A stretch of 26,621 bases of DNA from a virus. Position 1 is the first letter of the stretch. The number at the start of each line of letters is the position of its first letter. Location of the stretch: the IMG/VR virus record IMGVR_UViG_3300048587_000131, positions 1-26,621 of that record, one strand, 5' to 3'. Of the stretch, positions 3,715 to 26,621 are shown piece after piece. The notes under the pieces were generated by a model. That model saw nothing but the letters and a program-made list of their open reading frames with translations, did not search any database and was not told the DNA's origin. The position numbers and the translations under genes were made by a program.

Positions 3715-4735
3715 ATAGCCCTCTCATCACTGCCTCTATTACGTTCGTGGTCACTGCATTACCACACATCTTGTAGCGTTGAGTGTCTGATATTGGTTCA
3801 TCGCCCACTCCATACTTAGTCCAGTCATCAGGGAAGCCTTGTAGGCGTTCACATTCTTTGGGTGTTAGGCGGCGTATTCGTGGTTCTGCTACTAGGTTAT
3901 CTTTAGCGACAGAGGTTATCGTATTTGTATTATCGTCAGGTCTTGGCTCGATTGTCTGTACAGGTGGATTACCTCTACCTCTTTGAGCGATTATCTTCGG
4001 CTCTGTGTTGCCACCCTGCATAGTTGGGATAGTTGGTGCTAGCCCTGCTTTGTTGTAAACACGGAATCTTTGACTTCCTCTGACATCATACCGAATATTC
4101 GCTCTTGTACCTTTGGTGATAGGTAGAACTTGTCGGCTACATTCTCCTCTAAGATGTCCGACAAAGTAGATACGCTCTCGGTTTTGGGGAACTCCGAAGT
4201 CTTTGCTGTTAAGTACCTGCCATTCAACTCGATACCCCAAGTCGGAGAGAACCCCAAGTATTGTCTGGAAAGTCTTTCCCTGGTCGTGACTAAGTAAGCC
4301 TTTAACATTTTCGAGTACCAAATGTCTGGGTCTTTTTTCTGAGAGAATCCTAGCGATGTCAAAAAAGAGTGTGCCTCTGGTGTCGTTAAATCCCTGTCTT
4401 TTTCCAGCCACGCTGAAAGCTTGGCAAGGGAATCCTCCAACAAGGAGGTCGAAGTCTGGGAGTTCTTTAGCATTGATTTTTGTTGCGTCTCCATAGTTGG
4501 TGTGTCCATTGAATTGCCTTTCGTAGACTTTAATTGCGTATTTATCGATTTCGGAGTAACCAATACAACTGGCTGATTGTCGCCGCTTTTGTAGTGTGTT
4601 GCCCGTATTGTCGGCACTATATCTAATAGTTGCATTGGCTTGTTGTGCCTCGGTATTGCCTTCAAGAGCATTTTGTATTCCAAGTTCAAATCCTCCTATT
4701 CCGCTAAACATACTAAAATATTTAATTGTCTTCAC
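3698..4735 (-). CDS. DNA (cytosine-5)-methyltransferase
   Basis: A 345-residue C5-cytosine methyltransferase. Visible motifs are I (FSGIGGFELGI, residues 10-20), IV with the catalytic cysteine in GGFPCQAFS (Cys104), VI (LENVKG, 141-146), VIII (QNRERIYFVG, 184-193), IX (RRLTPKECERLQGFP) and X (CGNAVTTNV). The protein transfers a methyl group from SAM to C5 of cytosine in a target sequence set by the 195-280 region. In a phage it typically protects the genome from host restriction. Start is GTG with GAGGGA upstream. Residues 22-57 form an Asn/Thr/Gln-rich insertion between motifs I and II that is unusual for the family. No cognate restriction enzyme is recognised nearby. A second long frame lies inside this gene (see 4039-4509). 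Confidence 0.95.
   Translation of the reverse strand: MKTIKYFSMFSGIGGFELGIQNALEGNTEAQQANATIRYSADNTGNTLQKRRQSASCIGYSEIDKYAIKVYERQFNGHTNYGDATKINAKELPDFDLLVGGFPCQAFSVAGKRQGFNDTRGTLFFDIARILSEKRPRHLVLENVKGLLSHDQGKTFQTILGVLSDLGYRVEWQVLNSKDFGVPQNRERIYFVGHLRGECSRQVLPITKGTRANIRYDVRGSQRFRVYNKAGLAPTIPTMQGGNTEPKIIAQRGRGNPPVQTIEPRPDDNTNTITSVAKDNLVAEPRIRRLTPKECERLQGFPDDWTKYGVGDEPISDTQRYKMCGNAVTTNVIEAVMRGLYENCE
4039..4509 (-). CDS. Possible alternative-frame gene nested in the cytosine methyltransferase gene
   Basis: A second minus-strand frame inside the methyltransferase gene stays open for 217 codons (4689-4039). Within it, an ATG at 4509 has AAAGG seven bases upstream and gives a 156-residue product. 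Around residues 110-145 it reads TSEFPKTESVSTLSDILEEN and then VADKFYLSPK. From memory this resembles a separate family of phage proteins carrying S-LS-ILE...KYYLS. Those codons overlap methyltransferase motif VIII, so conservation of the methyltransferase alone could carry the alternative reading along. Dual coding is therefore possible but unproven, and database entries of this type may themselves be misannotated shadows. Confidence 0.25.
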   Translation of the reverse strand: MDTPTMETQQKSMLKNSQTSTSLLEDSLAKLSAWLEKDRDLTTPEAHSFLTSLGFSQKKDPDIWYSKMLKAYLVTTRERLSRQYLGFSPTWGIELNGRYLTAKTSEFPKTESVSTLSDILEENVADKFYLSPKVQERIFGMMSEEVKDSVFTTKQG

Positions 4736-5132
4736 ACTCCCTCGCTTCCTTTAGTGATATTCTGCCTTCTAACACATCTTCTGCCAGAGCAATACGCTCC
4801 TCCCAATCTACCTGCTTACCAATAGACGAATCTCTACTTCGTTGGTACATTTGGTCGTAATATTCCTGCGCCCAAGTACTAGTAATGAATCTACTGAATT
4901 GGCGTGGGTGGTCAGTGAAATATCTGTGATGTGCAGCACAACCAGCAAATGCGTTTCTAAAATCGCACCTAGTAGCATTAAACTTTCTGCTTATTATGTG
5001 CATACATTGGAGTTGGGCGGAACATTTAACATCATCCCAGCCCTCTGCCTCACATCTACCAACCGACCTAATTGCCTTGCTAAATGTAGTGTCTGCCTTT
5101 GCCTTTAAACCCTTGTACCTTTTTACCGCCAC
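4722..5132 (-). CDS. HNH-type nuclease-like protein (NinG/Rap or DUF968-like)
   Basis: A 136-residue protein with a basic N-terminus and a Cys/His cluster: Cys27, Cys37, Cys43 and His45 (LQCMHIISR), then TRCDFRNAFAGCAAHHRYFTDHP (Arg55, Asp57, Asn60, Cys65, His68 and His69). This is the layout of treble-clef HNH proteins such as lambda NinG/Rap and DUF968, which cut branched or recombining DNA. Start is GTG with AGAGGG upstream. The 3' end overlaps the methyltransferase gene by 14 bp. A role in recombination or Holliday-junction cleavage is inferred from the family only. Confidence 0.65.
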   Translation of the reverse strand: MAVKRYKGLKAKADTTFSKAIRSVGRCEAEGWDDVKCSAQLQCMHIISRKFNATRCDFRNAFAGCAAHHRYFTDHPRQFSRFITSTWAQEYYDQMYQRSRDSSIGKQVDWEERIALAEDVLEGRISLKEARECEDN

Positions 5133-5136
5133 TTTG

Positions 5137-5331
5137 TTATCCCTCTTTCTTATATGTACCGTTTCTTATTGCTTTGGCGGCTTCTGGATTACCCTTTAGC
5201 CAAGGATTTGTATTTCCTTTATTGCCCTTAGAGCGTTTGCTCATCTCGGCTTTACCAAACTTAATTGCTTCATCGGGAGTCATATCTGCAAACTTTTCAA
5301 TCTGCATTTGCTCCCACCATGTATATTTCAT
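5137..5331 (-). CDS. Small unrecognised protein with GNPEAAKAIRNG motif (64 aa)
   Basis: A 64-residue basic protein starting MKYTWWEQMQIEKFADMTPDEAIKF. Its second half is glycine- and asparagine-rich (SKGNKGNTNPWLKGNPEAAKAIRNG). That half loosely recalls the NPEAARKAGAKGG segment of the protein at 8112-8306, so both may be KGG-like DNA-associated peptides. AAAGGA precedes the ATG. It lies between the ssDNA-binding-like gene and the HNH nuclease, in what may be a DNA-metabolism group. No defined function. Confidence 0.6.
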   Translation of the reverse strand: MKYTWWEQMQIEKFADMTPDEAIKFGKAEMSKRSKGNKGNTNPWLKGNPEAAKAIRNGTYKKEG

Positions 5332-5346
5332 AGTCAGTCCTTTCTC

Positions 5347-5775
5347 TTAGTTAAAATGGATTGAATCCATGTCCAGTGGGGCGTCATACTCACTATACTC
5401 TGGAGCTTCATCTGCAACTGGTGGATATGTGTCTTTAATCTTTGGGGCGTCTCTTACCACATTGAAGAAATATCTAATATCCATACCGGACTTACCGTTA
5501 CTTTTCACGTGAAAGGTTACACCGTTTATGTCTGCTACTCCAGCTTTGTAAACTCCCTCTAGTAAATTACCTAGTTGGCCAGCGCCTAAATCCATTCGAC
5601 CTTTATCGGTATCTATGGTATACATCTTCCTGTAACCCTCTGTCCACTTTTCTTCTGTTAGCATTCGGCGAGCTTCGTTATCCCATTTCTTGAATTGATA
5701 ACCACCAGCCTTAGTAATAGTGAAGTCTTTATCTACTAGTGCGCTTAATTTTGTATATTCTATCTTGTTGTCCAT
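5347..5775 (-). CDS. Possible single-stranded-DNA-binding protein
   Basis: A 142-residue protein whose first ~110 residues look like a beta-rich domain (GRMDLGAGQLGNLLEGVYK, then GVTFHVKSNGKSGMDIRYFF). The last ~30 residues are an acidic, proline-containing tail ending LDMDSIHFN. An OB-like core followed by a disordered acidic tail with a terminal hydrophobic patch is typical of phage and bacterial SSB proteins, whose tail recruits replication and repair partners. The neighbours are nuclease- and recombination-like. I cannot match it to a named SSB family, so this is an inference from architecture. AAGGAG precedes the ATG. Confidence 0.4.
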   Translation of the reverse strand: MDNKIEYTKLSALVDKDFTITKAGGYQFKKWDNEARRMLTEEKWTEGYRKMYTIDTDKGRMDLGAGQLGNLLEGVYKAGVADINGVTFHVKSNGKSGMDIRYFFNVVRDAPKIKDTYPPVADEAPEYSEYDAPLDMDSIHFN

Positions 5776-5788
5776 TGTTGTCTCCTTA

Positions 5789-6163
5789 TTATTTATCGTA
5801 ACACTCTAGTACTGCGGCACTAGCTATTGGGTCGTTATTTATGTCTAGGTTCTCAAACTGGTCATTAGTTAGGTGGCTGTCTAGGTAATCGTACATACAC
5901 TGGCAAGCACTTCTGTTTGCTTCCGTAGAACAACTATCTACAAACACCCTCTCCCAATTTGATGCCATACTGTCTGATATTGATGGTGCTAACTTTACTT
6001 GGGTGTCGTCTTTAATTGGTGCTGAATAGGTTGGTGCCGTTTGGTTGGGCGTATAACCAGTATCTTGACTGTCTGTTATTGCTACAACTACTACTAATAG
6101 TATGAATATCCCACCAAATATAGCTAGTGCTAGTACTACTGCGTTTGTTAATTTACTTTTCAT
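5789..6163 (-). CDS. Membrane-anchored protein with cysteine-bearing external domain
   Basis: A 124-residue protein with a basic N-terminus and one strong membrane segment (about residues 8-29, VVLALAIFGGIFILLVVVVAI). A Pro/Thr/Ser-rich linker follows, then a C-terminal domain with four cysteines (DSCSTEANRSACQCMYDYLD and ...LECYDK) that could form two disulfides outside the membrane. The topology suits an N-in, C-out anchor. Phage proteins of this build often act in superinfection exclusion or host-envelope modification, but nothing specific identifies that here. It has a strong GAGGAG ribosome site. The window does not otherwise encode secretion factors. Confidence 0.65.
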   Translation of the reverse strand: MKSKLTNAVVLALAIFGGIFILLVVVVAITDSQDTGYTPNQTAPTYSAPIKDDTQVKLAPSISDSMASNWERVFVDSCSTEANRSACQCMYDYLDSHLTNDQFENLDINNDPIASAAVLECYDK

Positions 6164-6175
6164 ATTATTCTCCTC

Positions 6176-6640
6176 TCATTTAATTTCGTTTAGTAAAGCA
6201 AAGTCCCCATGGTGAAGTCTTGCTAATTTATTGTATGCTTTGGCGGCTTCAACCTCAGTTTTATGCCGACTGCTATGGTATGTTGTACCGTGACTACTTA
6301 CAGAAGCCCTCCATGAGTTTTCGCTTCTCTGTGTAACGCCACGATATTTGCCACTCCTTTCCGTATCTTTATTAATTACATTCTGCCTCCTAGTTGCTAG
6401 CCTTAAATTAGTTCTCCTATTATCGAGTTTGTCTCTGTTAATATGGTCTACTTCTTTGCCTTCAGGAAAACCCATAATAAACCTAGCCAGAGAATATGTT
6501 GAGCCTTTGTTTGTAAATAGGGCGTAACCGTACTTATTAATGGTTAGCCTGTGCTTCGATACAGCAGGGAAATCATCCTCATCTACTAGAACAAATATTA
6601 TGCGTCCTTTACTCATAAGTGGTATTTTTATAGTACTCAT
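6176..6640 (-). CDS. HNH homing-type endonuclease with C-terminal AP2 DNA-binding domain
   Basis: A 154-residue protein with an HNH_3-type nuclease domain, EVDHINRDKLDNRRTNLRLA (residues 63-82; His66, Asn74) followed by TRRQNVINK. An AP2/ERF-type DNA-binding domain follows (98-152, starting KYRGVTQRSENSWRASV). HNH-AP2 proteins are free-standing homing endonucleases common in phages: they nick or cut cognate sites and spread by recombination. Here it is linked to its upstream neighbour by ATGA and has no ribosome site of its own. No intron or intein is visible around it, so it appears free-standing. Confidence 0.9.
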   Translation of the reverse strand: MSTIKIPLMSKGRIIFVLVDEDDFPAVSKHRLTINKYGYALFTNKGSTYSLARFIMGFPEGKEVDHINRDKLDNRRTNLRLATRRQNVINKDTERSGKYRGVTQRSENSWRASVSSHGTTYHSSRHKTEVEAAKAYNKLARLHHGDFALLNEIK

Positions 6641-6939
6641 AGTAGGGCCGCCTGATTATGAATACAGTTTTTTACACCTATAAATGGCTCTCGCTTACTA
6701 AGGCTAATTACATAAACCAGTATGCGTCCATTCTTTTGCAACTTCTGTCTTTGGGCGACTTTCTTCTCTATTACGAACCAGCCATATTCCTCAAATGGTT
6801 TCTGGTTAGCGAACCTAATCAACAAATACTCCTGTGCGTTATCTACTGTTTCCTGACTAATCAATATAGACTTGTCGTGATAACGTGGTTCTTTGACCTT
6901 AGTTATCGTGGTGTATGGGTCGTGTTCACAGAGTTTCAT
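6637..6939 (-). CDS. Unrecognised protein upstream of the AP2-HNH gene (100 aa)
   Basis: A 100-residue protein starting MKLCEHDPYTTITKVKEPRY, with strand-rich character (RILVYVISLSKREPFIGV). I use the ATG at 6939 because it forms an ATGA overlap with the upstream nuclease stop and has GGAAG behind it, although the frame opens 12 codons earlier. It contains two cysteines, too far apart for an obvious zinc site. No family is recognised. Coupling on both sides supports it as a real gene. Confidence 0.6.
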   Translation of the reverse strand: MKLCEHDPYTTITKVKEPRYHDKSILISQETVDNAQEYLLIRFANQKPFEEYGWFVIEKKVAQRQKLQKNGRILVYVISLSKREPFIGVKNCIHNQAALL

Positions 6940-7748
6940 TTCACTTCCAATACTTCGTGTTCGTAAGTTTTCCACTCGCCACCATTCCAGTGATGGATGC
7001 GTAAACCTTTTACTTTGTTACCGGCTGCCTCAACTATAGATGCGTAGAATGATAACTGTTTCCAGTAAGTGTCTAGCTTTTCTTTCTTTAGTTCGCCGTT
7101 AGTTTTGAAGTCCTCTATATAGTAGACGTCTTTTTCTTTAACTACTCTATCTATTTGGCCGGCGTATTTACGGGCATGGTCTACTACTAGGGCTTCGTAT
7201 AGAGCATCTTCTTTTCTGCCTTTATAGAAACTCAGTACGGCCTGTTTAATTACTGGGTGGTCATGTAGATGGTATTCTTTATCAAATACATCTGCATACT
7301 TCTCAAACTTTCCGTATAGTTCTAGTGCTGCGTGAATTGCAGTACCTAGTCCGTTAGATATATCTCTTTTCATATTCCACATCTTTACTATATCTTCGGC
7401 GGGGACTTTAAACTTCTTGGCCATCTTCTCGGTGATACCAGTCATGTCAAACTCTGGTTCTCCTAATTGGGCGTAAACACTACCAGATAAATACTTGTCG
7501 CCTTGTTCGTTAGTGTACATATGTGCGACATCATCATAGAGTATTGACCCTCCGACCCATGCTTTAAGCTTCTTGAAGTTGCCGTTACTTTTTTTAAGTG
7601 GCGCTTCACTATACTGTGACCATAATTCCTCAATTCGTGGCATGGCATAATCTCTTGCTTCCTCAAAGGTATCTGCTTCTAACTCAATACTTGGCTGTAT
7701 GTTTCCGTATTGTACGGTCGGTATAACGGCCGTAATAGTGTATTTCAT
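6936..7748 (-). CDS. PD-(D/E)XK-family nuclease (RecB/Cas4-like core)
   Basis: A 270-residue protein with the RecB-type nuclease core. It has a helix with GTAIHAALELYG (His139), then YAGQIDRVV with Asp200, the strand YYIEDFKT (Asp213, Lys215) and the helix motif QLSFY (Gln231, Tyr235). That set matches the RecB/Cas4/AddB nuclease branch, which cuts DNA ends using bound metal. Phage versions usually act as recombination exonucleases. A partner annealing protein is not recognised here, though the ssDNA-binding-like gene at 5347-5775 is close. Start at 7748 is supported by an ATGA overlap and AAAGGA. The N-terminal 110 residues match no known domain. Confidence 0.8.
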   Translation of the reverse strand: MKYTITAVIPTVQYGNIQPSIELEADTFEEARDYAMPRIEELWSQYSEAPLKKSNGNFKKLKAWVGGSILYDDVAHMYTNEQGDKYLSGSVYAQLGEPEFDMTGITEKMAKKFKVPAEDIVKMWNMKRDISNGLGTAIHAALELYGKFEKYADVFDKEYHLHDHPVIKQAVLSFYKGRKEDALYEALVVDHARKYAGQIDRVVKEKDVYYIEDFKTNGELKKEKLDTYWKQLSFYASIVEAAGNKVKGLRIHHWNGGEWKTYEHEVLEVK

Positions 7749-8122
7749 GATGCTATCCTTTCCGTTCTGTATTGTCTCATCCAATTTCTAGCACAGCTCT
7801 TACAACTCCTGTATGGTTTCTGGCCTTTTTTCTGTTTAATAGAAGTGTTTTCTTCGGTGAGTTTGTGGCCTCTTTTACATAAGTCACCATTATCCATCGT
7901 CCGATGACACGACCTGCATAGCTGCTTGTAGTCGTTTACTTCTCTTTTATATTCACCGCTGATGTTTGCCCAGTCAAATACTTTTGATTCATGAGTTATG
8001 TCGTTTTCACAGTGACTAGCCTTTCCGTAATTTCTATTTATCCATGCGTGTTTAGAGTTGTAATTTGCGTCCATTCCTTTCCAGTTATTTTTATTGCCTA
8101 TTCTCCAGTCTTTAGTTTTCAT
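7745..8122 (-). CDS. HNH-like protein with a second zinc-finger domain
   Basis: A 125-residue protein. The first half reads like a phage HNH fold: a tryptophan/asparagine-rich lead-in, Cys38 in ASHCEN, then DYKQLCRSCHRTMD (Cys69, Cys72, His73). The second half is a compact zinc finger, DLCKRGHKLTEENTS followed by CKSCARNW (Cys82, His86, Cys107, Cys110), seen in many phage HNH proteins. It may be a homing-type nuclease or a DNA-binding derivative. The ATG at 8122 follows GGAGAAG and overlaps the upstream gene by 11 bp. The longer frame from 8221 would double-read the KGG gene, so it was rejected. Confidence 0.7.
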   Translation of the reverse strand: MKTKDWRIGNKNNWKGMDANYNSKHAWINRNYGKASHCENDITHESKVFDWANISGEYKREVNDYKQLCRSCHRTMDNGDLCKRGHKLTEENTSIKQKKGQKPYRSCKSCARNWMRQYRTERIAS

Positions 8123-8306
8123 TCTTTCTTCTCCTACTGATTTGGCCACCTTTGGCGCCAGCTTTTCTAGCTGCTTCTGGGTTGTTATAGAATCCACCAG
8201 TTCTGCCGTTCTTTCCACCAACAGAACCTATCTTTGCGTAAAAATCAGTTCCATACTTCTTTATCATTGTTTGTTTGGCTTTTAAAGCACCTTCTGGTGT
8301 TTGCAT
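8112..8306 (-). CDS. KGG-motif small basic protein (64 aa)
   Basis: A 64-residue protein with glycine-rich KGG-type repeats: SVGGKNGRTGGFYNNPEAAR followed by KAGAKGGQISRRRK. The GF..NPE.A...G.KGG pattern is that of the KGG/stress-protein repeat (YciG-like), also common in small phage proteins thought to bind nucleic acid. The basic C-terminus supports that idea. Its ATG overlaps the upstream stop as TAATG, and AAGGAG lies behind it. Actual function is unknown. Confidence 0.7.
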   Translation of the reverse strand: MQTPEGALKAKQTMIKKYGTDFYAKIGSVGGKNGRTGGFYNNPEAARKAGAKGGQISRRRKNEN

Positions 8307-17081: not shown

Positions 17082-17957
17082 ATGGCTACTACAGGCGCAT
17101 TTAACAGCGGTAATGTGAACGTCGGCGTAACAGCTGGCAACGTATTCCGCCCTAACGTGTGGTCAAAAGAAGTCTTGATGTTCGTAAAGAGCAACTTGGT
17201 ACTTTTACCACTCATCAAACACTATGACGCAGACGTAAAAGGTTCTGGTCAGACACTAGAAATCCCTAACACCAGCACAATCTCAGCTAACCTAAAAGCT
17301 CAGAACACTGTTGTTACATTGAACTACAACACAGACACTAAAACTACAATTACACTAAACCGACACTACGAATCTTCATTCTTAGTAGAAGACATCCTAG
17401 CTACACAATCTAACTACTCAACTCGAAGCGACTACACACAAGCTGCTGCTTATGCAATCGCTGAGAAAATTGATAGCGACCTTGCTACAGCTATGACTAC
17501 TACTTGGAAAACTGCTTCTCAGGCTTACGGTGCTTACGGTACTGCAATAAGTGACACTGTCATTCTTGCTGTAAACCGATACCTAAGCGAGAACAAAGCT
17601 CCTCGTACAGACCGTGTATTAGTTGTTCATCCTAAAGGTGAATCAGAACTTCTTAACATTGACAAGTACGTTCGTTACGACGCACTTGGAACTGGTGAAG
17701 CTATCAAAAGCGGTAAACTTGGTACCATTTATGGTGTCGAAGTATTCATGTCTCAGAACCTTGTCTACCTAGATACAGCTACTGACGAATACAACCACTT
17801 GATGTTCCACAAAGAAGCTTGGGCAATTGCTATGCAAATGAGTCCTCGTACTCAAGCACAGTACAAGCAAGAACACTTAGGTTGGTTAGTAACAGTTGAT
17901 GTTCTTTACGGACACACTGCACTACGAAGCAACTTCGGTTTCGTCGTAAAAAGCTAG
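17082..17957 (+). CDS. Major capsid protein (HK97-fold)
   Basis: A 291-residue coat protein. Its N-terminal arm (NVNVGVTAGNVFRPNVWSKE) leads into a spine helix region (YTQAAAYAIAEKIDSDLATA). The C-terminal domain has the typical LVVHPKGESELLNI and GKLGTIYGVEVFMSQNL strands. This pattern is that of HK97-fold coat proteins of short-tailed and related phages. Codon usage shifts toward fewer, favoured codons than in the neighbours, as expected for the most abundant virion protein. It is directly preceded by a scaffold candidate and followed by an intrinsic terminator, so head genes form a closed transcript. AAGGA lies about ten bases upstream of the ATG. Confidence 0.93.
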   Translation: MATTGAFNSGNVNVGVTAGNVFRPNVWSKEVLMFVKSNLVLLPLIKHYDADVKGSGQTLEIPNTSTISANLKAQNTVVTLNYNTDTKTTITLNRHYESSFLVEDILATQSNYSTRSDYTQAAAYAIAEKIDSDLATAMTTTWKTASQAYGAYGTAISDTVILAVNRYLSENKAPRTDRVLVVHPKGESELLNIDKYVRYDALGTGEAIKSGKLGTIYGVEVFMSQNLVYLDTATDEYNHLMFHKEAWAIAMQMSPRTQAQYKQEHLGWLVTVDVLYGHTALRSNFGFVVKS

Positions 17958-17980
17958 TTTTACACAGCTTTTACAGAGAG

Positions 17981-18008
17981 AGCCACCTTTCGGGGTGGTT
18001 TTTTCTTT
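17981..18008 (+). terminator. Intrinsic terminator after the capsid gene
   Basis: GCCACC (17982-17987) pairs with GGTGGT (17994-17999) around TTTCGG, followed by a run of T (TTTTTTCTTT). It closes the head-gene transcript 24 bp after the capsid stop. The T-run overlaps the -35 of the promoter at 18007-18034, so termination and re-initiation are adjacent. Confidence 0.88.
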
Positions 18009-18070: not shown

Positions 18071-18394
18071 ATGAAATCACCACTACAAACAATAGAAGCA
18101 GTAAGCAAGAAGTACGGAATCACAGACGAGATAGATGTACCGCCAGTAATGAAGTTGTCCTACCTAGAATCACAGTACCAAGAAATTCAACACACTCTTT
18201 GGCGCTCATTAGTAGACTCGGTCCACGCTACACGACTAGCTGAATCAGATAACGAAGTCTTAAAAGCTAAGGGCAATAATAACTATGCTCAACACGTTAA
18301 TGAAGTCCAGCAGTTTGTTGGCGCCCTAAAGATGCTGAACGTATTTATGGCTGAATTAAAAGAAAAGTATCCAGAACTAAAAGCTGAGGACTAA
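18071..18394 (+). CDS. Unrecognised helical protein after the capsid gene (107 aa)
   Basis: A 107-residue protein that appears all-helical and acidic (SYLESQYQEIQHTLWRSLVD; VQQFVGALKMLNVFMAELKE). It has a strong TAAGGAG site and is the first gene behind the new promoter. In phages, small helical proteins right after the capsid are often head-completion or head-tail joining proteins. Nothing more specific can be read. The next gene starts immediately after its stop codon. Confidence 0.7.
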   Translation: MKSPLQTIEAVSKKYGITDEIDVPPVMKLSYLESQYQEIQHTLWRSLVDSVHATRLAESDNEVLKAKGNNNYAQHVNEVQQFVGALKMLNVFMAELKEKYPELKAED

Positions 18395-18616
18395 GTGGAA
18401 AACCCTGGCTCATTAAGACAATCTCTGGACAAGTATCCAGACCTTTCCCGTGACGAAGTAATGAAGATTTGGTCTGGCGAATTATGCAAGTGGAGAGAGT
18501 ATGTCAAGCTACCAGTAGAAGTGGTGCCAGCAATAGATACGCCACAGACAATAGGCCAACTAGTTTTATTTGAGGAGACAGACGATGGACAAACTCGCAG
18601 TCATAGTACCATCTAG
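18395..18616 (+). CDS. Unrecognised small protein (73 aa), GTG start
   Basis: A 73-residue protein starting at a GTG directly after the upstream TAA, with GAGG six bases before it. It contains a helix-rich start (LRQSLDKYPDLSRDEVMKIW) and a proline/valine-rich middle (LPVEVVPAIDTP). The 3' end overlaps the first glycosyltransferase-like gene by 32 bp. It may be a further small virion or assembly protein. No family is recognised. Confidence 0.6.
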   Translation: MENPGSLRQSLDKYPDLSRDEVMKIWSGELCKWREYVKLPVEVVPAIDTPQTIGQLVLFEETDDGQTRSHSTI

Positions 18617-19385
18617 GGGATTGATGTTCTCTGAGACATTTGCAGAGCTTCTAGGCGAGCTAGAGGGTATTAAGCATGAGTTTTACTGGGCGCATGAAAA
18701 AGGGCTTCCAGAGTGCTTTAATGAGCCTACAGAACGTGCTTTAGCCGACCCAGAAGTATTTGCTGTGCTTATATGCGAAGATGATATGATGCTACCCAGG
18801 GGCATACTACGCAAGATGTTTGAAAAGAACTATCCTGTAGTAGCGCTAGACTATCCATTTCAGCAAGACGGCGACTCTACTTGCCTACATGACCCTAAAG
18901 GCTACGCCTACTGGACTGGTACTGGATTTATACTAATAGCTCGTCAAGTATTAGAGAATATGGAGAAACCTATCTGGCGCACCGACACTACCTTTGACCC
19001 ACTAATAGATAAGGATACTATTCACTTTTGGCCACGTAAGCTAGATAGAATTTTCTACGGGTTACACGACCTGAGATTTGGATTATTACTGTATTCGGCG
19101 GGCGTACCAGTTCTACCAATGAAACAGACAGCAGGACAACGTAAGCTGCTTAAATTAGGCGAGGCACATACAAACGACGGGGCGCACGAAATATATCACC
19201 TAACGAAAGTCGGCAGAGATTTAGTCAGTGGCATGATTACCCCCGAAAACTCCGAGATGTTCTTGGGGGCGATGAATCGTGTCCAGAATGTCAAGATATG
19301 GGAAAAGAAACCACCATTTATCTCATACGATGAAAACGACCAGCCATATCTAAATGACGGCAGAAAGTTTGAGACCGTACTATGA
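18585..19385 (+). CDS. Glycosyltransferase-like protein, GT-A fold (tandem paralogue 1)
   Basis: A 266-residue protein. Its N-terminal Rossmann-like strand (MDKLAVIVPSRGLMFS) and the acidic motif ICEDDMML (Glu65-Asp-Asp67, in the place of a metal-binding DxD) point to a GT-A glycosyltransferase. Later features are YWTGTGFILIARQVL, GLHDLRFG and the near-C-terminal QRKLLKLGEAHTNDGAHEI. It is clearly homologous to the next gene. It should use a nucleotide sugar to glycosylate an acceptor that cannot be identified here. I chose the ATG at 18585 (residue 6 of the open frame), which has GGAG upstream. It opens a six-gene sugar cassette. Confidence 0.7.
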   Translation: MDKLAVIVPSRGLMFSETFAELLGELEGIKHEFYWAHEKGLPECFNEPTERALADPEVFAVLICEDDMMLPRGILRKMFEKNYPVVALDYPFQQDGDSTCLHDPKGYAYWTGTGFILIARQVLENMEKPIWRTDTTFDPLIDKDTIHFWPRKLDRIFYGLHDLRFGLLLYSAGVPVLPMKQTAGQRKLLKLGEAHTNDGAHEIYHLTKVGRDLVSGMITPENSEMFLGAMNRVQNVKIWEKKPPFISYDENDQPYLNDGRKFETVL

Positions 19386-20218
19386 AAATCGGAGTTATTT
19401 TTCCAAGTCGTGGACTTGTCTTTAGCCGAACGGCTGACGAGTTACTGCAGAACCTAAAGAAGTATGATTACAAAATTTTCTTCTCACACAGACGCCCAAT
19501 TCCCGAATGTTTTAATGAACCACTAGAAGAAGCCTTAAGAGACAATACTATTACTCATATTTGGTTCGTAGAAGATGATATGGTGATGTCTACTCGTACC
19601 CTCACTAGATTACTAGAAGTAGACAAAGCTGTAGTTACTGCTGATTATCCAGTAAATAAGAGTGGTAGGGGTGCAGTATTTAAACTAAAGAATCAGATTA
19701 TCTATACAGGAACAGGCTGTCTACTAGTCAAGCGAGAAGTGTTTGACGAACTAAAACGCCCGTTCTTTAGAGTAGATGTTAGGTGGCGATTTAAGAACTA
19801 TGAAGACCAGATTAAACTATCGTCATATCACGTAGAAGATAAAGGTTACGGACTGCACGATATAACTTTCTGTATGGCACTCTATGAGAGAAGTATTCCT
19901 ATTCACGCCATTAAACAAAGTTTATCTCAACGTAAACTTGTATCACTTGGAAAAGCTGGTACTAATGACGGCGCCCACAACATAGAAATCTGGAAAGACA
20001 TAGAAAAAGACCAACTACTAAAAGACATTAAAAGCTGGCCAATAGAAAAGGCTGGCAGTCTAATAGTAGTGGAAACTGAATACGGACAAATGAACGTAAC
20101 TGAGTCACACGCCAAAAAACTTATTAAGTTAGGCATGGCAACTAAAGTACCTAAAAGACCCTTAGTGGTAGATTGGAGTGGGTTCAATGAATCTCCTAAT
20201 AGCAGTAATCACCTATAA
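19382..20218 (+). CDS. Glycosyltransferase-like protein, GT-A fold (tandem paralogue 2)
   Basis: A 278-residue paralogue of the preceding gene. They share PSRGL.FS near the start, PECFNEP, the VEDDM acidic motif (Glu64-Asp66), DYP, YTGTG, YGLHD and the QRKLVSLGKAGTNDGAHNIE segment. It has about 50 extra residues at the C-terminus. The start forms an ATGA overlap with the upstream gene. Divergence is large enough to suggest an old duplication with different acceptors or sugars, rather than a recent copy. Function is inferred from fold only. Confidence 0.7.
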   Translation: MKIGVIFPSRGLVFSRTADELLQNLKKYDYKIFFSHRRPIPECFNEPLEEALRDNTITHIWFVEDDMVMSTRTLTRLLEVDKAVVTADYPVNKSGRGAVFKLKNQIIYTGTGCLLVKREVFDELKRPFFRVDVRWRFKNYEDQIKLSSYHVEDKGYGLHDITFCMALYERSIPIHAIKQSLSQRKLVSLGKAGTNDGAHNIEIWKDIEKDQLLKDIKSWPIEKAGSLIVVETEYGQMNVTESHAKKLIKLGMATKVPKRPLVVDWSGFNESPNSSNHL

Positions 20219-20909
20219 CAGACTGGACTATACAAAGAAGACCCTACGGATGTTGTGGGACACAATCGAAGTTCCACACTATATCGTAGTGGTAGACAAC
20301 AACTCCACAGACGGCACCCAAGAATACCTACAAAAACTACTTAGTAGAAACCATATAGACAAAGTTATCCTCAACCCAGAAAATTATTATCCAGGTAAAG
20401 CAACTAATATAGCTTGGCGGGATGGACTACAGGAGTTTGACGCCACCCACCTAATGCGACTAGATAACGATATGCACTTATCTAAGGGCTGGGATTTAGC
20501 GGCTGAACAGTATTTTAAGAAGATACCTACGCTTGGGCAACTAGGCATAGACAACGACGCCATAGATACACCCAAAGCTAAATTACGAGAAATGTCGCTT
20601 AACGGTATGACGATAAATCCTTATCCTGGCTGTGTTGGCGGTCCCTGTATTATCAGGCGTAAGCTATGGGATATGGGTATCAGATACGACGAAGATAGAT
20701 GGGAGGGTAGCAACTCCCCACTACAAGAGGATTCTCGCCTATCTAAGAAGATACGAGACACTGGCTATATACACGGCCACATGACAGATGGTTTATGCTG
20801 GACTTTTGCCAATAAGGATAACTGGCATGAGCATAAAGATTATTATATTAAAACTATGGGCGACAGGGGCTACATTGAAAATGTGCAGTTCCTAGAAGGG
20901 TTGAAGTGA
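20187..20909 (+). CDS. GT2-family glycosyltransferase
   Basis: A 240-residue family 2 glycosyltransferase: MNLLIAVITYNRLDYTKKTL, then VDNNSTDGTQ (37-46) for nucleotide binding and the DxD-type LDND (92-95). A C-terminal part with DSRLSKKIRDTGYIHGHM follows. GT2 enzymes are inverting transferases using UDP-, dTDP- or GDP-sugars. The ATG at 20187 has GGAG upstream and lies 32 bp inside the previous gene. No membrane segment is present, so it acts in the cytoplasm. Confidence 0.85.
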   Translation: MNLLIAVITYNRLDYTKKTLRMLWDTIEVPHYIVVVDNNSTDGTQEYLQKLLSRNHIDKVILNPENYYPGKATNIAWRDGLQEFDATHLMRLDNDMHLSKGWDLAAEQYFKKIPTLGQLGIDNDAIDTPKAKLREMSLNGMTINPYPGCVGGPCIIRRKLWDMGIRYDEDRWEGSNSPLQEDSRLSKKIRDTGYIHGHMTDGLCWTFANKDNWHEHKDYYIKTMGDRGYIENVQFLEGLK

Positions 20910-21790
20910 AGTCATTTATTACAGGTGGAGCTGGATTTGTCGGCAAACACCTAAAAGAACTGTTAGAAGCAGAGGGGCAAGAAGTAATTGTGTACGACCT
21001 AGTAGACGGCTGGGATATACTATCACACGAACTATATGACGCACTTAAAAGACACAAGCCCGACTATATTTATCATTTGGCGGCTATGGCGTCTGTACCA
21101 CAATCTTTCGCCGAACCAAGAGAATGTATCACGACTAATATAGAGGGAAGTGTAGCCTTACTGGAAGCTGTTAGAGAGTTAAATTTTGTCACCAATATCT
21201 TACTAGCCTCTAGTACCGAAGTCTACTCACCAGCACTTGACGACACACCACTAGATGTAGGGAGCGCAATCCACCCAAGGACACCATACGGAGTATCTAA
21301 ACTAGCTATGGAACAAATGGCTGGAATCTACGCATCTGCTTACGGAATGAATATAGTTGTCACTCGCACCACTAACCACACTGGACCAGGTCAAGACGGC
21401 CCATACGCTGTCACAAGTTTTGCCAAACAAATAGTAGCCATAGAGCGTGGTGAACAGGATGAACTGAAACATGGAGATTTGACTAGCTTTAAGAGCTACT
21501 TAGACGTCAGGGACGTAGTTAAGGCTTATAGATTAGCGATAGATATGCAACCATACGTCTACAATATTGCTTCAGATGAAACCTATGAGATGCAGGGACT
21601 ATTAGACCGACTTGTTGCCAACGCTAAAGTACCTGTTAAAACATCTAAAGATACCGCTTTAATTCGCCCATACGCTCCTGATAAAACTCGCTACCTAACC
21701 AGTAGCAAACTGAAGGATGCTGGATGGAAACCAGAATATAACATAGAAAGAACATTAAATGACGTACTTGAGTACTGGAGGACAAAATGA
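20906..21790 (+). CDS. NAD-dependent nucleotide-sugar epimerase/reductase (GDP-4-keto-6-deoxymannose reductase-like)
   Basis: A 294-residue extended short-chain dehydrogenase. It shows TGGAGFVG (6-13) for NAD(P) binding, the SSTEVY catalytic segment (102-107), YGVSK (Tyr128, Lys132) and NHTGPGQ (157-163). The last is typical of GDP-mannose dehydratases and GDP-4-keto-6-deoxymannose reductases. FKSYLDVRDVVKAY also favours the reductase branch, which would make GDP-6-deoxysugar (for example GDP-rhamnose). The 4,6-dehydratase needed upstream is not in the window. Start is GTG within a GTGA overlap. It supplies sugar donor for the neighbouring transferases. Confidence 0.8.
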   Translation: MKSFITGGAGFVGKHLKELLEAEGQEVIVYDLVDGWDILSHELYDALKRHKPDYIYHLAAMASVPQSFAEPRECITTNIEGSVALLEAVRELNFVTNILLASSTEVYSPALDDTPLDVGSAIHPRTPYGVSKLAMEQMAGIYASAYGMNIVVTRTTNHTGPGQDGPYAVTSFAKQIVAIERGEQDELKHGDLTSFKSYLDVRDVVKAYRLAIDMQPYVYNIASDETYEMQGLLDRLVANAKVPVKTSKDTALIRPYAPDKTRYLTSSKLKDAGWKPEYNIERTLNDVLEYWRTK

Positions 21791-22983
21791 GAACAATTAC
21801 TAACTGTAGAAGCTGTAACGGAGAGATAAAAGAGTTCCTTGATTTGGGTGTTCAATTCACTTCAGACTTCAGAGAAGATAACTCTGACACACCAGCCTAT
21901 CCTATAGTGGCTGTTAAATGTGTGGATTGCCACCTAGTTCAACTACGAGATACTACACCTAGCCATGAAATGTACCATGATAACTACGGTTTCAAATCGG
22001 GTGTGTCTAACTCTATTAAAGACGACCTTAAAGATAACGTAGAAAACGCCTTAGAGTTTATTCCAAAACCCGAAAACTGGTTAGACATAGCTAGTAATGA
22101 CGGCACCCTACTAAGTTATGTGCCAAAATCTGTTTACAGGGTGGGAATCGACCCAATCACTAAATACTGTAAAATGGCAGAAGAACACGCAGACTATATA
22201 GTAAATGACTTCTTTAACTACGATAAACTAGAACACTTCAAATTTGACGTAATTACATCTATTAGTTGTTTCTATGATATGGACGACCCAAATGGATTTG
22301 TAGAGGGTGTGGCGAAAGTTCTCGCCAAAGACGGAATCTGGATAGTACAACAAAACTACCTACTACCTACAATGGAACTAAACGCCGTAGATAACTTCTG
22401 CCACGAACACCTCGAATACTACACCCTACTATCTATGGAACCACTATTAGAACGGCACGGACTAGAAGTAATAGACTTGTCTACAAGCATGGTAAACGGT
22501 GGAAGTCTGCGAACTGTAATTGCTCACAAAGACAGGTGGGGCGTATCTAAGATGGTAGAACAACAGCGCCAAATAGAGGCTGACTTCAAACTAGATACAG
22601 ACGAACCGTATGAAAGATTTGCTAGTGATGTTTGGAAGAATCTACGAGAATTAAAATTATTCATAACTGACGCAAACTCCAAAGGCAAAACAGTTGCTAT
22701 TCTGGCCGCTTCTACTAGGGGAGCTACAATTTGGCAAGCTGCGGGAATTGGTCCAGATGATGTGCTGTTCGCAGTCGAGCGTAATCCCGAAAAGGTCGGC
22801 AAATACTTTAACGCTATCCACGTACCAATTGTAAGTGAAGAAGAAGCAAGAGAGCGCAAGCCTGATTATATGATAGTGGGGCCTTGGTTCTTTGCTGACG
22901 AAATCATAGACAGAGAAAGAGAATATGTAGCCAATGGAGGAACTTTAGTAATACCACTACCTAAACTAGAGATTATCCAATGA
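21787..22983 (+). CDS. Nucleotide-sugar C-methyltransferase (SAM-dependent, zinc-binding)
   Basis: A 398-residue protein with the three-part layout of deoxysugar C-methyltransferases. An N-terminal zinc site has Cys7, Cys10, Cys45 and Cys48. A SAM domain has WLDIASNDGTLLSY (98-111) and the conserved NFCHEHLEYYTLL segment that holds catalytic residues. A C-terminal Rossmann-like domain has ILAASTRGATIW and ends in YVANGGTLVIPLPKL. These enzymes add a methyl group to a keto-sugar carbon, making branched sugars in antibiotics and surface glycans. The start overlaps the previous stop (ATGA). With the reductase-like neighbour, it predicts a branched deoxysugar. Confidence 0.88.
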   Translation: MRTITNCRSCNGEIKEFLDLGVQFTSDFREDNSDTPAYPIVAVKCVDCHLVQLRDTTPSHEMYHDNYGFKSGVSNSIKDDLKDNVENALEFIPKPENWLDIASNDGTLLSYVPKSVYRVGIDPITKYCKMAEEHADYIVNDFFNYDKLEHFKFDVITSISCFYDMDDPNGFVEGVAKVLAKDGIWIVQQNYLLPTMELNAVDNFCHEHLEYYTLLSMEPLLERHGLEVIDLSTSMVNGGSLRTVIAHKDRWGVSKMVEQQRQIEADFKLDTDEPYERFASDVWKNLRELKLFITDANSKGKTVAILAASTRGATIWQAAGIGPDDVLFAVERNPEKVGKYFNAIHVPIVSEEEARERKPDYMIVGPWFFADEIIDREREYVANGGTLVIPLPKLEIIQ

Positions 22984-23630
22984 CGCTAGGTATATACATA
23001 CCGACATTTGGCAGGGCAGACAAGCTACAAGCTGTCGCCGATAATCTAAAAGAAAACACCAAATCTGACTATAACCTTTACTGGTGTGTTGAAGAACATG
23101 ACACCGAAAGCATAGACAAGGCTCTGGCTACTGGCGCCACAATAGTAATTAACACTAGAAAGCCAACCTATTCAGACGCCCTACAATGTATCTACGAAGT
23201 TACAGATGAGGAGATATTCCTTTGGGGTAATGACGACTTCTATTTTCTACCTAATTGGGACGAGCAACCAATGGAGATGATGAAAGACGAAAACATCGGT
23301 GTGCTTGGACTACATGACGGCAACCCAAAAACAAGATACTGGTCCATCTCACTAGTTAGGCGCAAATATATAACCGAGCAGTCTGGAGTAGTAGATATGC
23401 CTAATCGTGTGCTATATCCCTATCACCACAACTTTGTTGATGACGAACTAACAGCTACAGCTATTAAAAGAGGTGTGTGGTCGCATTGTGAAGCGCCTTG
23501 TATCCTACACCAGCACCACAGCTTTAAGTGGTTGGGTGATTTTCCCCACGATGAAACCTACGCCAAAAACGATAAGCACGTAGCAATAGACGCCGAAACT
23601 TACAATAACAGAATACATTTGTGGCAGTAA
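22980..23630 (+). CDS. GT2-like glycosyltransferase
   Basis: A 216-residue GT-A/GT2-like protein: GIYIPTFGRADKLQAVADNL at the start and WGNDDFYFLPNWDE (Asn84-Asp-Asp86) as the DxD-like metal site. A C-terminal half with HHNFVDDELTATAIKRG and clustered histidines follows (ILHQHHSFKWLGDF). It overlaps the methyltransferase stop by ATGA. It probably transfers the sugar made by the two preceding enzymes, but the acceptor is unknown. It is the last gene of the sugar cassette; a conserved intergenic element and the fibre-like genes follow. Confidence 0.75.
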   Translation: MTLGIYIPTFGRADKLQAVADNLKENTKSDYNLYWCVEEHDTESIDKALATGATIVINTRKPTYSDALQCIYEVTDEEIFLWGNDDFYFLPNWDEQPMEMMKDENIGVLGLHDGNPKTRYWSISLVRRKYITEQSGVVDMPNRVLYPYHHNFVDDELTATAIKRGVWSHCEAPCILHQHHSFKWLGDFPHDETYAKNDKHVAIDAETYNNRIHLWQ

Positions 23631-23668: not shown

Positions 23669-24577
23669 ATGGATTTTGACCGAATAAATCAGCTTAACCA
23701 ACAGAAAAAGCAAGAAGCTGAAAAAGCCCAACTACTACAGACGATTGAAACTGCTGGCGATAAGGTGGCTAGTGCTGTAATTCAGACCGAACGCAACACT
23801 AAAAAGGTTACTATTACTAATGACCTCGCCAAACCACAAGACATCAATAAGGTCGTAGAGGCAGTTAATAAATTAGGTGGCGAACTAAAGCCCAAAGACC
23901 TCAAGCCAGTAACAGACGCACTCGACCAAGTTAGTCAAGCTATTGCCAAACTTCCTACCAAATACCCAGACTTCCCTGAATTCCCTGATTATCCAGAAGC
24001 TAAAGAAGATATTAAAGTTACTAACCTGTCTGAACTAAAGAGTTACTTTGAAGATGTAGTTACTGCTGTCGGTAAACTAAAGACCGATATTAAATTTGAC
24101 CCAAAGATAGAAATCAAACCAGCAGACGTTAAGGTAACAGAAAAAAACATAGATTTAACGCCAATTACTAAGGGACTAGCTAATTTAGAAAAAGCCCTTA
24201 AGTCTATTGAGACGCCAAACTTTGATACCACGGAACTGTCTATAGGACTTACACAGGTAAAAGAGAGTATCCAGAATCTTACATTTCCAGCATCTAATTT
24301 CATGCTTCCCTTTGTAGATGAAGAAGGTAGTGGCGCCCAAATACAACTAAGTTCTGGTAAACTACCAGTAGAAGCAACCCTAACCCCTGCACCTATCTTT
24401 GACATACGAAACATTGAAGAAGATGCAACTTATAAATACTTTGGCTTTGAAGAACGTGGTGGCACTAACTGGCGTATTATGCGTAAGACTTTGGCAACAA
24501 GTGCCTTTCTATACGCTACTGGTACGTCAGACTATGCAACTAACTGGACTGGAAAGGCAGGTTTAACCTATGCGTAA
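23669..24577 (+). CDS. Tail fibre/stalk-like protein with coiled-coil repeats
   Basis: A 302-residue protein. The first ~200 residues are rich in short heptad helices and degenerate lysine-rich segments (NQQKKQEAEKAQLLQTIETA; ALDQVSQAIAKL; GLANLEKALKSIET), as in trimeric fibre stalks. A glutamate/proline turn (YPDFPEFPDYPEAKED) interrupts them. The C-terminal ~60 residues (YKYFGFEERGGTNWRIMRKT and GTSDYATNWTGKAGLTYA) form a compact motif seen in phage small fibre or virion proteins. It starts the tail/fibre block, with AGGAC of the conserved element as ribosome site. Trimeric attachment to the tail is inferred, not shown. Confidence 0.65.
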   Translation: MDFDRINQLNQQKKQEAEKAQLLQTIETAGDKVASAVIQTERNTKKVTITNDLAKPQDINKVVEAVNKLGGELKPKDLKPVTDALDQVSQAIAKLPTKYPDFPEFPDYPEAKEDIKVTNLSELKSYFEDVVTAVGKLKTDIKFDPKIEIKPADVKVTEKNIDLTPITKGLANLEKALKSIETPNFDTTELSIGLTQVKESIQNLTFPASNFMLPFVDEEGSGAQIQLSSGKLPVEATLTPAPIFDIRNIEEDATYKYFGFEERGGTNWRIMRKTLATSAFLYATGTSDYATNWTGKAGLTYA

Positions 24578-24598
24578 AATAATAACTAAGGAGAAATA

Positions 24599-25006
24599 AT
24601 GTCAAAAGGAAACACAACCGAGAACGACTTTGTAAAGTTCGTTTTCAACGCAACAGCTATGCCTTCATACGGCTCTAACCTATATGTATCACTACATACA
24701 GCAGACCCAGGTGAAGCAGGCGACCAAACTACATCAGAAGCAACCTATACAGACTATGCAAGAGTACTAGTATCAAGAGACGGTGCTGGCTGGACTGTAT
24801 CAGGAAACGAAGCAGAAAACACAGCAGAGATAACCTTCCCTGAATGTACTGGTGGAACAAACACGATTACACACGTAGCAGTAGGTACAGCAGCTTCAGG
24901 TGCAGGTCAAATACTATACTCAGGAGCATTAACAGCCTCTATAGCAGTATCTAACCTCATCACACCAAGATTTCCTGCTGGCACACTAATAATGCAGGAG
25001 GACTAA
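24599..25006 (+). CDS. Phage virion protein of tail-fibre type (135 aa)
   Basis: A 135-residue beta-rich protein. Segments SNLYVSLHTADPGEAGDQTT, YARVLVSRDGAGWTVSG and THVAVGTAASGAGQILYSGA match the layout of a widespread small phage protein found beside fibre genes (VALHTADPG near the N-terminus, YARV..., then THVAIG...). It is probably a structural component of fibre or baseplate. TAAGGAG precedes the ATG. Glycine, alanine, serine and threonine dominate, as in virion proteins. Confidence 0.75.
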   Translation: MSKGNTTENDFVKFVFNATAMPSYGSNLYVSLHTADPGEAGDQTTSEATYTDYARVLVSRDGAGWTVSGNEAENTAEITFPECTGGTNTITHVAVGTAASGAGQILYSGALTASIAVSNLITPRFPAGTLIMQED

Positions 25007-25008
25007 TA

Positions 25009-25629
25009 ATGGCTGAATCATATACCCAACTACCACCAAACTCTACAGGTAACAAAATTAGAACCAGAACTAAAGTTATTGGTGCAAACACCGTACACGA
25101 ACAAGCTGTATACCAAGCTGCACTTCCTACCTATTACGCTTTAGCAGATGCAACAGCTTTCGCAGCTAACAAACATCTTATTTCAATTCTAAACGCTACT
25201 GGTTCAGGTAAAGTAGTATCTATTAAAAAGATGTTTATGATAAACACTCAACTTTCTTCCGTGACTGGTGTTGCAGTCCGAGCTGATGTTAAGCGTATGA
25301 CTGCTCACTCTGCTGGTACAGCAATAACTCCACAGTCTTGTGACAGCTTAAACGCTGCTTTACCTGCTGAAATTACCGTTAGAACAGGTGCAACCGTAAC
25401 AGAAGGTGCATTACTCTTTCCATTGACTTTCACAAACGATGAAGCTGGTGCAACTCAGGCTTTTCCAAGTACTCAGTTAATGGCTGGATTAAACTGGATG
25501 CCAGAAGGTGTTGAAACTCAAGAAACAAGATTACGACCTGGCGAAGGGCTAACGGTTAAGCAGATTACTTCTTCAACTGTCGGTCAATTTGCGTGGCTAA
25601 TTGTCTTTACGGTAGATGACGAGGTATAG
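25009..25629 (+). CDS. Probable virion/fibre-associated protein (tandem paralogue 1)
   Basis: A 206-residue beta-rich protein beginning MAESYTQLPPNSTGNKIRTR. Shared with the following gene are the N-terminal motif, ISILNATGSGKVVSIKKMFM, ATVTEGALLFPL, GLNWMPEGVE and the C-terminal EGLTVKQITSSTVGQFAWL. No catalytic motif is visible. In context it is likely a structural or receptor-contacting protein. AGGAGG precedes the ATG and only two bases separate it from the upstream stop. I know no named family. Confidence 0.65.
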   Translation: MAESYTQLPPNSTGNKIRTRTKVIGANTVHEQAVYQAALPTYYALADATAFAANKHLISILNATGSGKVVSIKKMFMINTQLSSVTGVAVRADVKRMTAHSAGTAITPQSCDSLNAALPAEITVRTGATVTEGALLFPLTFTNDEAGATQAFPSTQLMAGLNWMPEGVETQETRLRPGEGLTVKQITSSTVGQFAWLIVFTVDDEV

Positions 25630-25632
25630 ACT

Positions 25633-26250
25633 ATGGCTGAAAGCTATACTCAACTAAGTCCAAACTCAACAGGCAACAAGATACGAGAACGAGAACGTAC
25701 TATTGGTGCTGATGATGTGAGAGAACAGGCAGTCTTTCAAAGTGCTAGACAATCTTATGTTGCTCTTGTAGCAGATAGTGTATTCGCTAACTCCAAACAG
25801 CACTTCTCTATATTCAACGGCAGTGGTAGTGGTGTAATCGTTAGAGTGCAAAAACTCTACATTACTAATATGGTAGAAACTGCTGTCGCTGGTGGTATAA
25901 GACGACTTGATGTGAAGAAGATAAGTGCTTGCTCATCTGGTACAGATATAACTCCCCTTAAACAAGACAGTACAAACGATGATTTGCCAGCTCAAGTGTT
26001 AGTCAAAACTACTGCAACTGTGACTGAGGGTGCAATATTGTTTCCGTTAGTATTCCCTGATGATGAAATGCTACTCACTCAGAACTCAATGTCACAACAG
26101 CTATATTCAGGTATTAACTGGATACCAGAAGGCTTTGAACTACAAGAGTACACACTTAACGAAGACGAAGGAATTACTATTAAACAGATAACAAACTCAA
26201 CTGCTGGTACAGTTAGTTGGATTGTAGTCTTTAGCGTGGAGGAAGCGTAA
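25633..26250 (+). CDS. Probable virion/fibre-associated protein (tandem paralogue 2)
   Basis: A 205-residue paralogue of the preceding protein, with matching length and the same ordered motifs (MAESYTQLSPNSTGNKIRER; FSIFNGSGSGVIVRVQKLYI; ATVTEGAILFPL; GINWIPEGFE; EGITIKQITNSTAGTVSWIV). Nearly all differences lie in the middle and at surface-like positions. The pair probably arose by tandem duplication and then diverged, as happens for receptor-binding or decorating proteins. GAGG precedes the ATG; its stop overlaps the next ATG (TAATG). Confidence 0.65.
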   Translation: MAESYTQLSPNSTGNKIRERERTIGADDVREQAVFQSARQSYVALVADSVFANSKQHFSIFNGSGSGVIVRVQKLYITNMVETAVAGGIRRLDVKKISACSSGTDITPLKQDSTNDDLPAQVLVKTTATVTEGAILFPLVFPDDEMLLTQNSMSQQLYSGINWIPEGFELQEYTLNEDEGITIKQITNSTAGTVSWIVVFSVEEA

Positions 26251-26621
26251 TGCCACTTGCAACCTATTTCAATAATATGTGGTATGGCTCTGCTTCTGGT
26301 GCTACCTTTGGAGACGATAACGCTACGACTGTAGTTGCAGATATTCAGGGCTATGCTCAACCAGATAGTACAATTACTTCTACAGGAATTGTATTTGACG
26401 CAGATGCTACAAGACTAGTAAACAGTCCTGCAACTATTGAATCAATAGGAATAATAGCAACAGCTTCACCAAAGATGAGAGCTAGACCTACTGCAACCAT
26501 ATCTATAGGTTCACGACCAACAGCAGAAGATATTGCACAGGCTGTATGGGGTTCTGTCGCTGCTTCACTCAATACATCAGGCACAATGGGTGAGAAACTT
26601 AACGGTGCTGGTAGTGCTGGT
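26250..26621 (+). CDS. Tail fibre/spike-type protein, 3' end outside window
   Basis: The frame is open from the ATG at 26250 to the window edge (124 codons, incomplete). It begins MPLATYFNNMWYGSASGATF and later has TAEDIAQAVWGSVAASLNTS followed by GTMGEKLNGAGSAG. The DIA.AVW...GT.GE.LN pattern is common in phage fibre and baseplate proteins. Ribosome site GGAGG lies upstream inside the previous gene. The remaining part of the protein lies outside the window, so length and receptor domain are unknown. Confidence 0.75.
   Translation, partial: MPLATYFNNMWYGSASGATFGDDNATTVVADIQGYAQPDSTITSTGIVFDADATRLVNSPATIESIGIIATASPKMRARPTATISIGSRPTAEDIAQAVWGSVAASLNTSGTMGEKLNGAGSAG

Follow-up and report, generated by a model that had tools for sequence, protein, structure and literature searches.

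Why does a phage carry six genes of glycan synthesis between the genes for its capsid and those for its fibres? The question is raised by a viral record, IMG/VR IMGVR_UViG_3300048587_000131, whose 26,621 bases are referred to here as the window; the record is probably a fragment of a larger genome. The sequence alone had first been read without database searches. This initial annotation described a cassette at 18585-23630, inserted between capsid and fibre genes, that would place a C-methylated deoxysugar on virion proteins or on a late-stage host target. Does the locus act on the virion, and does it behave as one unit? Comparison with its relatives leads us to think it rather probable that the locus glycosylates the virion with a sugar whose identity can be exchanged, the acceptor being deduced from context.

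A constant core and a variable slot

On the plus strand of the window, genes for terminase, portal, scaffold and capsid protein are followed by a small gene, by six glycan genes (A to F) and by fibre genes. The glycan genes are six complete open reading frames that fill 18585-23630 on that strand, as first delimited. Stop and start codons overlap by 4 nt at A/B, C/D, D/E and E/F and by 32-41 nt at B/C, short overlaps that make the originally suggested translational coupling plausible. One relative carries all six genes in unchanged order, with 65-79% amino-acid identity to the window and ratios of nonsynonymous to synonymous substitution rates (dN/dS) of 0.05-0.12 where dS is measurable, C and F being saturated. 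The kept order and the low dN/dS argue that all six are working genes.

Are they inherited together? Relatives of the capsid protein, A, B and E were gathered from viral contigs and aligned by gene order; counts refer to 67 distinct B alleles, on contigs that are mostly fragments. The capsid gene lies within 3 kb upstream of B in every allele with at least 3 kb of upstream sequence (53/53), A adjoins B in 55 of 64 alleles, and C does so in 45 of 54. The stretch between C and the fibre genes is hypervariable. In this slot, which D, E and F fill in the window and in L071, gene types were called by Pfam and NCBIfam. L058 and L062 have an RmlB-like enzyme, a glycosyltransferase and an Fcl-like short-chain dehydrogenase/reductase (SDR); L063, L061, L011, L072 and L073 have FnlA and WecB, with or without a cupin and a methyltransferase; and L056, L022 and L036 pair an RmlB-like enzyme with WecB. 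A UDP-sugar dehydrogenase is found in L067, L109 and L114, and only a glycosyltransferase and an Fcl-like enzyme in L028, L029 and L032. Nucleotide-sugar enzymes were found in 23 of 33 slots. On a tree of A and the capsid protein, slot type needs 14 changes where the minimum possible is 6; 16 of the 30 inner branches are well supported, and even on these branches taken by themselves, several changes are needed in the three most mobile slot types. A, B and C form the core of the lineage, and D to F its variable part. Six intact glycan genes do lie between capsid and fibre genes, as the initial annotation had it, but their arrival as one six-gene insertion is ruled out, since A to C belong to the core.

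Phages trade these slot genes with one another. In most of the virion genes compared, the window's nearest relative is L071, the capsid protein excepted, for which other contigs are closer. L071 is more similar to the window than L084 is in the capsid protein (78 versus 66%), A (79 versus 64%), B (65 versus 46%) and C (72 versus 59%). D and E reverse this pattern, L084 being 82 and 81% identical to the window and L071 68 and 76%. A module whose D and E are nearest to L084, although the capsid protein and A to C are nearer to L071, moves between phages. L058 and L062 have RmlB genes of 94% DNA identity, against 72-79% for neighbouring genes. Does exchange stop at the slot? Contig 3300048833_000084 (L109), whose slot differs, is 98.5% identical in DNA to the window from 24363 to its end (26621), compared to about 67-75% over the capsid gene and A to C. 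This jump indicates that the fibre region recombines too. The breakpoint, at 24363, falls inside the plus-strand gene for a structural protein that closes the slot (23669-24577; relatives of 23-48% identity lie downstream of the slot), and 24363-26621 is, judged by its DNA identity, a recent exchange of the fibre region.

Core transferases and slot enzymes

What do the core genes encode? A (18585-19385) and B (19382-20218) are paralogues (profile-profile E 5.9e-70, 36% identity). Pfam and NCBIfam searches gave no match for either, B has a marginal PHROG match of unknown function, and a search of 50,697 phage records turned up nothing closely related to either protein. The AlphaFold2 model of B, built with 28 relatives, is confident (pLDDT 91.7). 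Its best PDB match by Foldseek is the GT-A protein A197 of Sulfolobus turreted icosahedral virus (STIV; E 4.6e-8, TM-score 0.66 by target), followed by mimivirus R699 and then by collagen/lysyl glycosyltransferases; many of the matches are GT-A enzymes. A yields a poor model (pLDDT 63) with the same best structural match; by sequence, the similarity of an A/B-type protein to A197 is not significant (E 0.29). Every sequence examined, 18 of A and 28 of B, has a metal-binding DXD-like motif, E-[DE]-D-M. The motif comes after the strand 59-63 in B; in A, whose identity over the lineage is 46-79%, EDDM is invariant. Structure prediction, proposed at the outset as a check, thus bears out two paralogous GT-A-like proteins. 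By its model B has the GT-A fold, as does A by its low-confidence model and its homology to B, and sugar transfer is predicted for both. Residues 222-270 of B form a small C-terminal domain of two strands, a helix and two strands; we rejected it as a virion-binding domain, since no other protein in these phages carries a copy of it and Pfam gave no match.

C (20187-20909, alternative GTG start at 20178) is a family 2 glycosyltransferase (GT2) over the Pfam cut-off (PF00535, 8.5e-12) with 52-72% identity in most relatives. F (22980-23630) falls just under it (PF00535, 8.6e-5; 23.0 versus 23.3 bits), and the two GT2-like transferases had been recognised correctly. F accompanies E in L071, L084, L085, L086 and L087. 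D (20906-21790) is an extended SDR resembling nucleotide-sugar 4-ketoreductases (PF16363 1.1e-50, YxxxK present). Its nearest solved relatives are two GDP-6-deoxy-hexulose reductases, 2pk3 (5.7e-49) and 6x3b (1.2e-42), the next scoring 3.4e-31. E (21787-22983), a sugar C-methyltransferase of the TylC3/TcaB9 type, has Zn-binding (PF08421), methyltransferase (PF13489) and C-terminal (PF08484) domains, all over cut-off, and matches D-mycarose 3-C-methyltransferase (4.9e-49). Cys7, Cys45 and Cys48 are invariant, as are Glu207 and His208 in relatives; with its three domains and these cysteines, E fits the zinc-containing enzyme that it was first taken for. The active site of TcaB9 comprises Tyr76, His181, Tyr222, Glu224 and His225; of these, E keeps the equivalent Tyr, Glu and His at 67, 207 and 208. 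Defence-system models run on A to F gave no match.

Which nucleotide carries the sugar? The dehydratase for the first step had been noted as missing from the window, and so it is: no GDP-mannose dehydratase (GMD) scores over cut-off in the window, in 19 viral relatives or in the genome G001, and D lies far below each 4,6-dehydratase equivalog cut-off. L084 has window-like D, E and F plus, between D and E, a gene resembling RmlB, the dTDP-glucose 4,6-dehydratase (TIGR01181, E 5.2e-80, under the strict equivalog cut-off); its ten best solved matches are all dTDP-glucose dehydratases. The Candidatus Saccharibacteria metagenome-assembled genome (MAG) that bears L071 contains a dTDP-glucose dehydratase in two pieces on two contigs (positions 1-203 and 211-321). 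The suggested search of the host for GDP-mannose 4,6-dehydratase found none over cut-off in this MAG; of 17 genomes in its order, 3 have a GMD over the cut-off and 5 a dTDP-glucose dehydratase. A GDP-only pathway is weakened by these results. Given the RmlB-like gene of L084 and the dehydratase pieces in a MAG without detected GMD, the donor is more likely a dTDP-linked than a GDP-linked C-methylated deoxysugar. The likeness of D to GDP-deoxysugar reductases, claimed initially, holds for its solved relatives, less so for the nucleotide; a C-methylated deoxysugar pathway beside virion genes is supported by the families of D and E and by their position.

Acceptor, expression and host

Which molecule would receive the sugar? 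We favour a virion protein, on grounds of the locus's position, the absence of predicted transmembrane segments from A to F, the scarcity of integrases (one in 19 viral relatives, a lower bound as the contigs are mostly fragments), the A197 fold match and the tight co-conservation of the capsid protein and A (Spearman 0.81 between their identities, 0.36 between those of capsid and portal). We infer the acceptor, the sugar, the order of transfer and the benefit to the phage as follows. As constant glycosyltransferases at work in the cytoplasm, A, B and C would begin a glycan on a virion protein and lengthen it, the capsid protein being the likeliest acceptor, and the interchangeable slot genes after C would make and attach a variable outer sugar. 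In the window, E may methylate C3 of a nucleoside-diphosphate-linked 4-keto-6-deoxyhexose, probably dTDP-4-keto-6-deoxyglucose from host RmlB; D would reduce the keto group at C4, and transfer of the resulting 6-deoxy-3-C-methyl hexose would fall to F, perhaps together with C. Exchange of the slot would alter the identity of the sugar while the capsid and A to C persist.

Could the enzymes instead remodel the host surface, late in infection or in a carrier state, for instance to block superinfection or to alter host adhesion? The donor types in the slots are those of bacterial surface glycans, and in PMC12911398 the 46 nucleotide-sugar genes (rmlB, rmlD, gmd, rmd and others) of groundwater Patescibacteriota phages are read as host surface modifiers. 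Yet A to F, devoid of transmembrane segments, include no flippase, polymerase or lipid-linked initiating transferase, and wherever an allele offers enough sequence, the locus is fixed between the capsid gene and the fibre genes. Nor do we find the flippase or GtrB and the temperate lifestyle of lysogenic gtr-type surface conversion, integrases being almost absent. We regard host remodelling as unlikely. Still less probable, in our view, is an acceptor outside the virion, be it a cytoplasmic host protein or some other molecule, whose glycosylation by these transferases would aid takeover. GT-A enzymes can use many acceptors, but the late position of the genes, and slot diversity without change of capsid type, fit surface exposure better than a conserved host target.

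Some phages glycosylate bases of their DNA. Might these transferases act on modified bases? The window encodes a C5 cytosine methyltransferase, and F weakly matches TET-associated glycosyltransferases (E 0.002, under cut-off). However, no member of the thymidylate-synthase/hydroxymethylase family was detected in the window or in 15 relatives by a search whose controls worked, and the glycan genes sit in a structural operon, which makes DNA a very improbable acceptor; a Tet_JBP search found no match and, run without a positive control, is uninformative. The high turnover of the slot would also suit passing cargo without function for the phage. We give this scarcely any credence, as dN/dS is 0.04-0.26 wherever dS is measurable, frames are intact and overlaps tight, the loci inspected closely show no broken frame, and distant phages retain E-F or RMD-E pairs.

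Several observations weigh against virion glycosylation as we propose it, or against its particulars. Beside the lower bound on integrases, the correlation of A with the capsid protein can arise from linkage of neighbouring genes, and 10 of the 33 slots, some of them with glycosyltransferases only, contain no nucleotide-sugar enzyme recognised by the small reference set used. D exceeds no equivalog cut-off and has S-T-E in its active site, compatible with a dehydratase. In four aligned phage C-methyltransferases, Asp164 and Cys205 occupy the positions of His181 and Tyr222 of TcaB9, so the substrate of E may differ from that of TcaB9. L085 carries a GMD-like gene beside its E homologue, which, like the best solved relatives of D, would fit GDP. 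The host, too, is assigned by MAG binning.

How are the glycan genes expressed? They had been thought to share the promoter of the virion genes. Of 63 alleles, 49 have a hairpin with a T tail at most 80 nt past the capsid stop codon, compared to 0-4 for any one of six other genes; its position is kept across the lineage, and the sequences are unrelated. In the window this intrinsic-terminator-like hairpin (17975-18006, plus strand, 14-pair stem) separates the capsid gene from the glycan operon. A sigma-70 scan returned 24 sites versus a shuffle mean of 28.4, no excess. With a conserved terminator intervening and sigma-70 sites no more frequent than in shuffles, we find no support for the shared promoter; the glycan genes are probably expressed by read-through or from a promoter of their own, below capsid level.

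Which host does the lineage infect? The HK97-type major capsid protein (17082-17957, plus strand; PHROG 267 major head protein, 1.9e-44) has relatives in 46 viral contigs; those in phage records are distant, below 35% identity among the records listed. When the capsid profile was run against 84,980 species genomes, three relatives emerged: a single Candidatus Saccharibacteria MAG has two of them, and the third lies in a MAG placed in the same order by genome search. This podovirus-like lineage probably infects Saccharibacteria, to the extent that the binning holds. L071 and L073, divergent phages with different slots, share one Saccharibacteria MAG.

Other genes flank the locus. A small conserved protein with no assigned function (18071-18394, plus strand) shows 24-63% identity in relatives; the small open reading frame before A (18395-18616) has a match only in the near-identical contig L002 and is possibly spurious. 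Downstream lie a podophage fibre protein of the GP4 fibre I gp80 family (24599-25006, plus strand, PF23140 1.2e-23) and, at 25009-26250, two tandem paralogous structural proteins, both beginning MAESYTQL.PNSTGNKIR. A minus-strand early region (3698-8221) encodes the C5 cytosine methyltransferase, an HNH/AP2 protein and a PD-(D/E)XK nuclease, and a secreted-looking CHAP-domain protein (619-1158) is likely a lysis or entry enzyme.

Relation to known systems

Phage particles are usually pictured as bare protein. If a conserved glycosyltransferase core and a fast-changing sugar slot do coat the virions of this lineage, the particle surface would be under diversifying selection in soil and water, where antibodies do not act. 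What, then, recognises that surface? Each virus in the lineage probably has a different sugar coat. More tentatively, we suggest that epibiont phages may possess a 'glycotype' system, keeping capsid and core glycosyltransferases while trading donor-sugar cassettes at a fixed site, much as in O-antigen switching, and that the nucleotide-sugar genes of Patescibacteria phages may be largely virion-coat genes. Such genes would have to be reread, from help for the host envelope to coating of the virus. Since the sequence reveals which slot type a phage has, predictions of sugar chemistry are directly testable.

Virion glycosylation as such is already known; its proposed new form here is the capsid-linked core with an exchangeable donor slot, of which we found no description among open-access papers, subscription papers lying outside the search. 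In mycobacteriophages of the Che8 and Rita type (Freeman et al. 2023, cited in PMC11256854 and PMC12619734), enzymes encoded by the phage are held to glycosylate proteins of the capsid and the tail tube. The predicted transferases of the window would be their counterpart. As far as the available portions of those two papers go, no exchangeable donor-sugar slot is described; in PMC11256854, a genome announcement, the glycosyltransferase genes are found close to the 3' end, whereas those of the window lie beside the capsid gene, and phages and hosts differ. The O-antigen nucleotide-sugar auxiliary metabolic genes of Patescibacteriota phages share with our lineage the enzyme classes rmlB, rmlD, gmd and rmd and probably the host phylum; the accessible part of PMC12911398 treats each as a metabolic gene in its own right whose product acts on the envelope of the host, with no capsid-linked locus, glycosyltransferase core or slot exchange described there. 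A197 of STIV (Turriviridae), the best structural match of A and B, is a suspected capsid-acting viral GT-A enzyme, which PMC10551542 describes as a glycosyltransferase essential to the virus and possibly responsible for glycosylating its capsid protein. Unlike the window lineage, STIV is an archaeal virus with a single enzyme and no donor genes described.

In bacterial O-antigen and capsule loci, constant genes flank swapped sugar pathways, and recombination yields diversity. Lying in a structural operon, spanning a few kilobases and lacking polymerase and export genes, the phage locus is unlike these bacterial loci, but its slot resembles them in the layout of constant and swapped genes.

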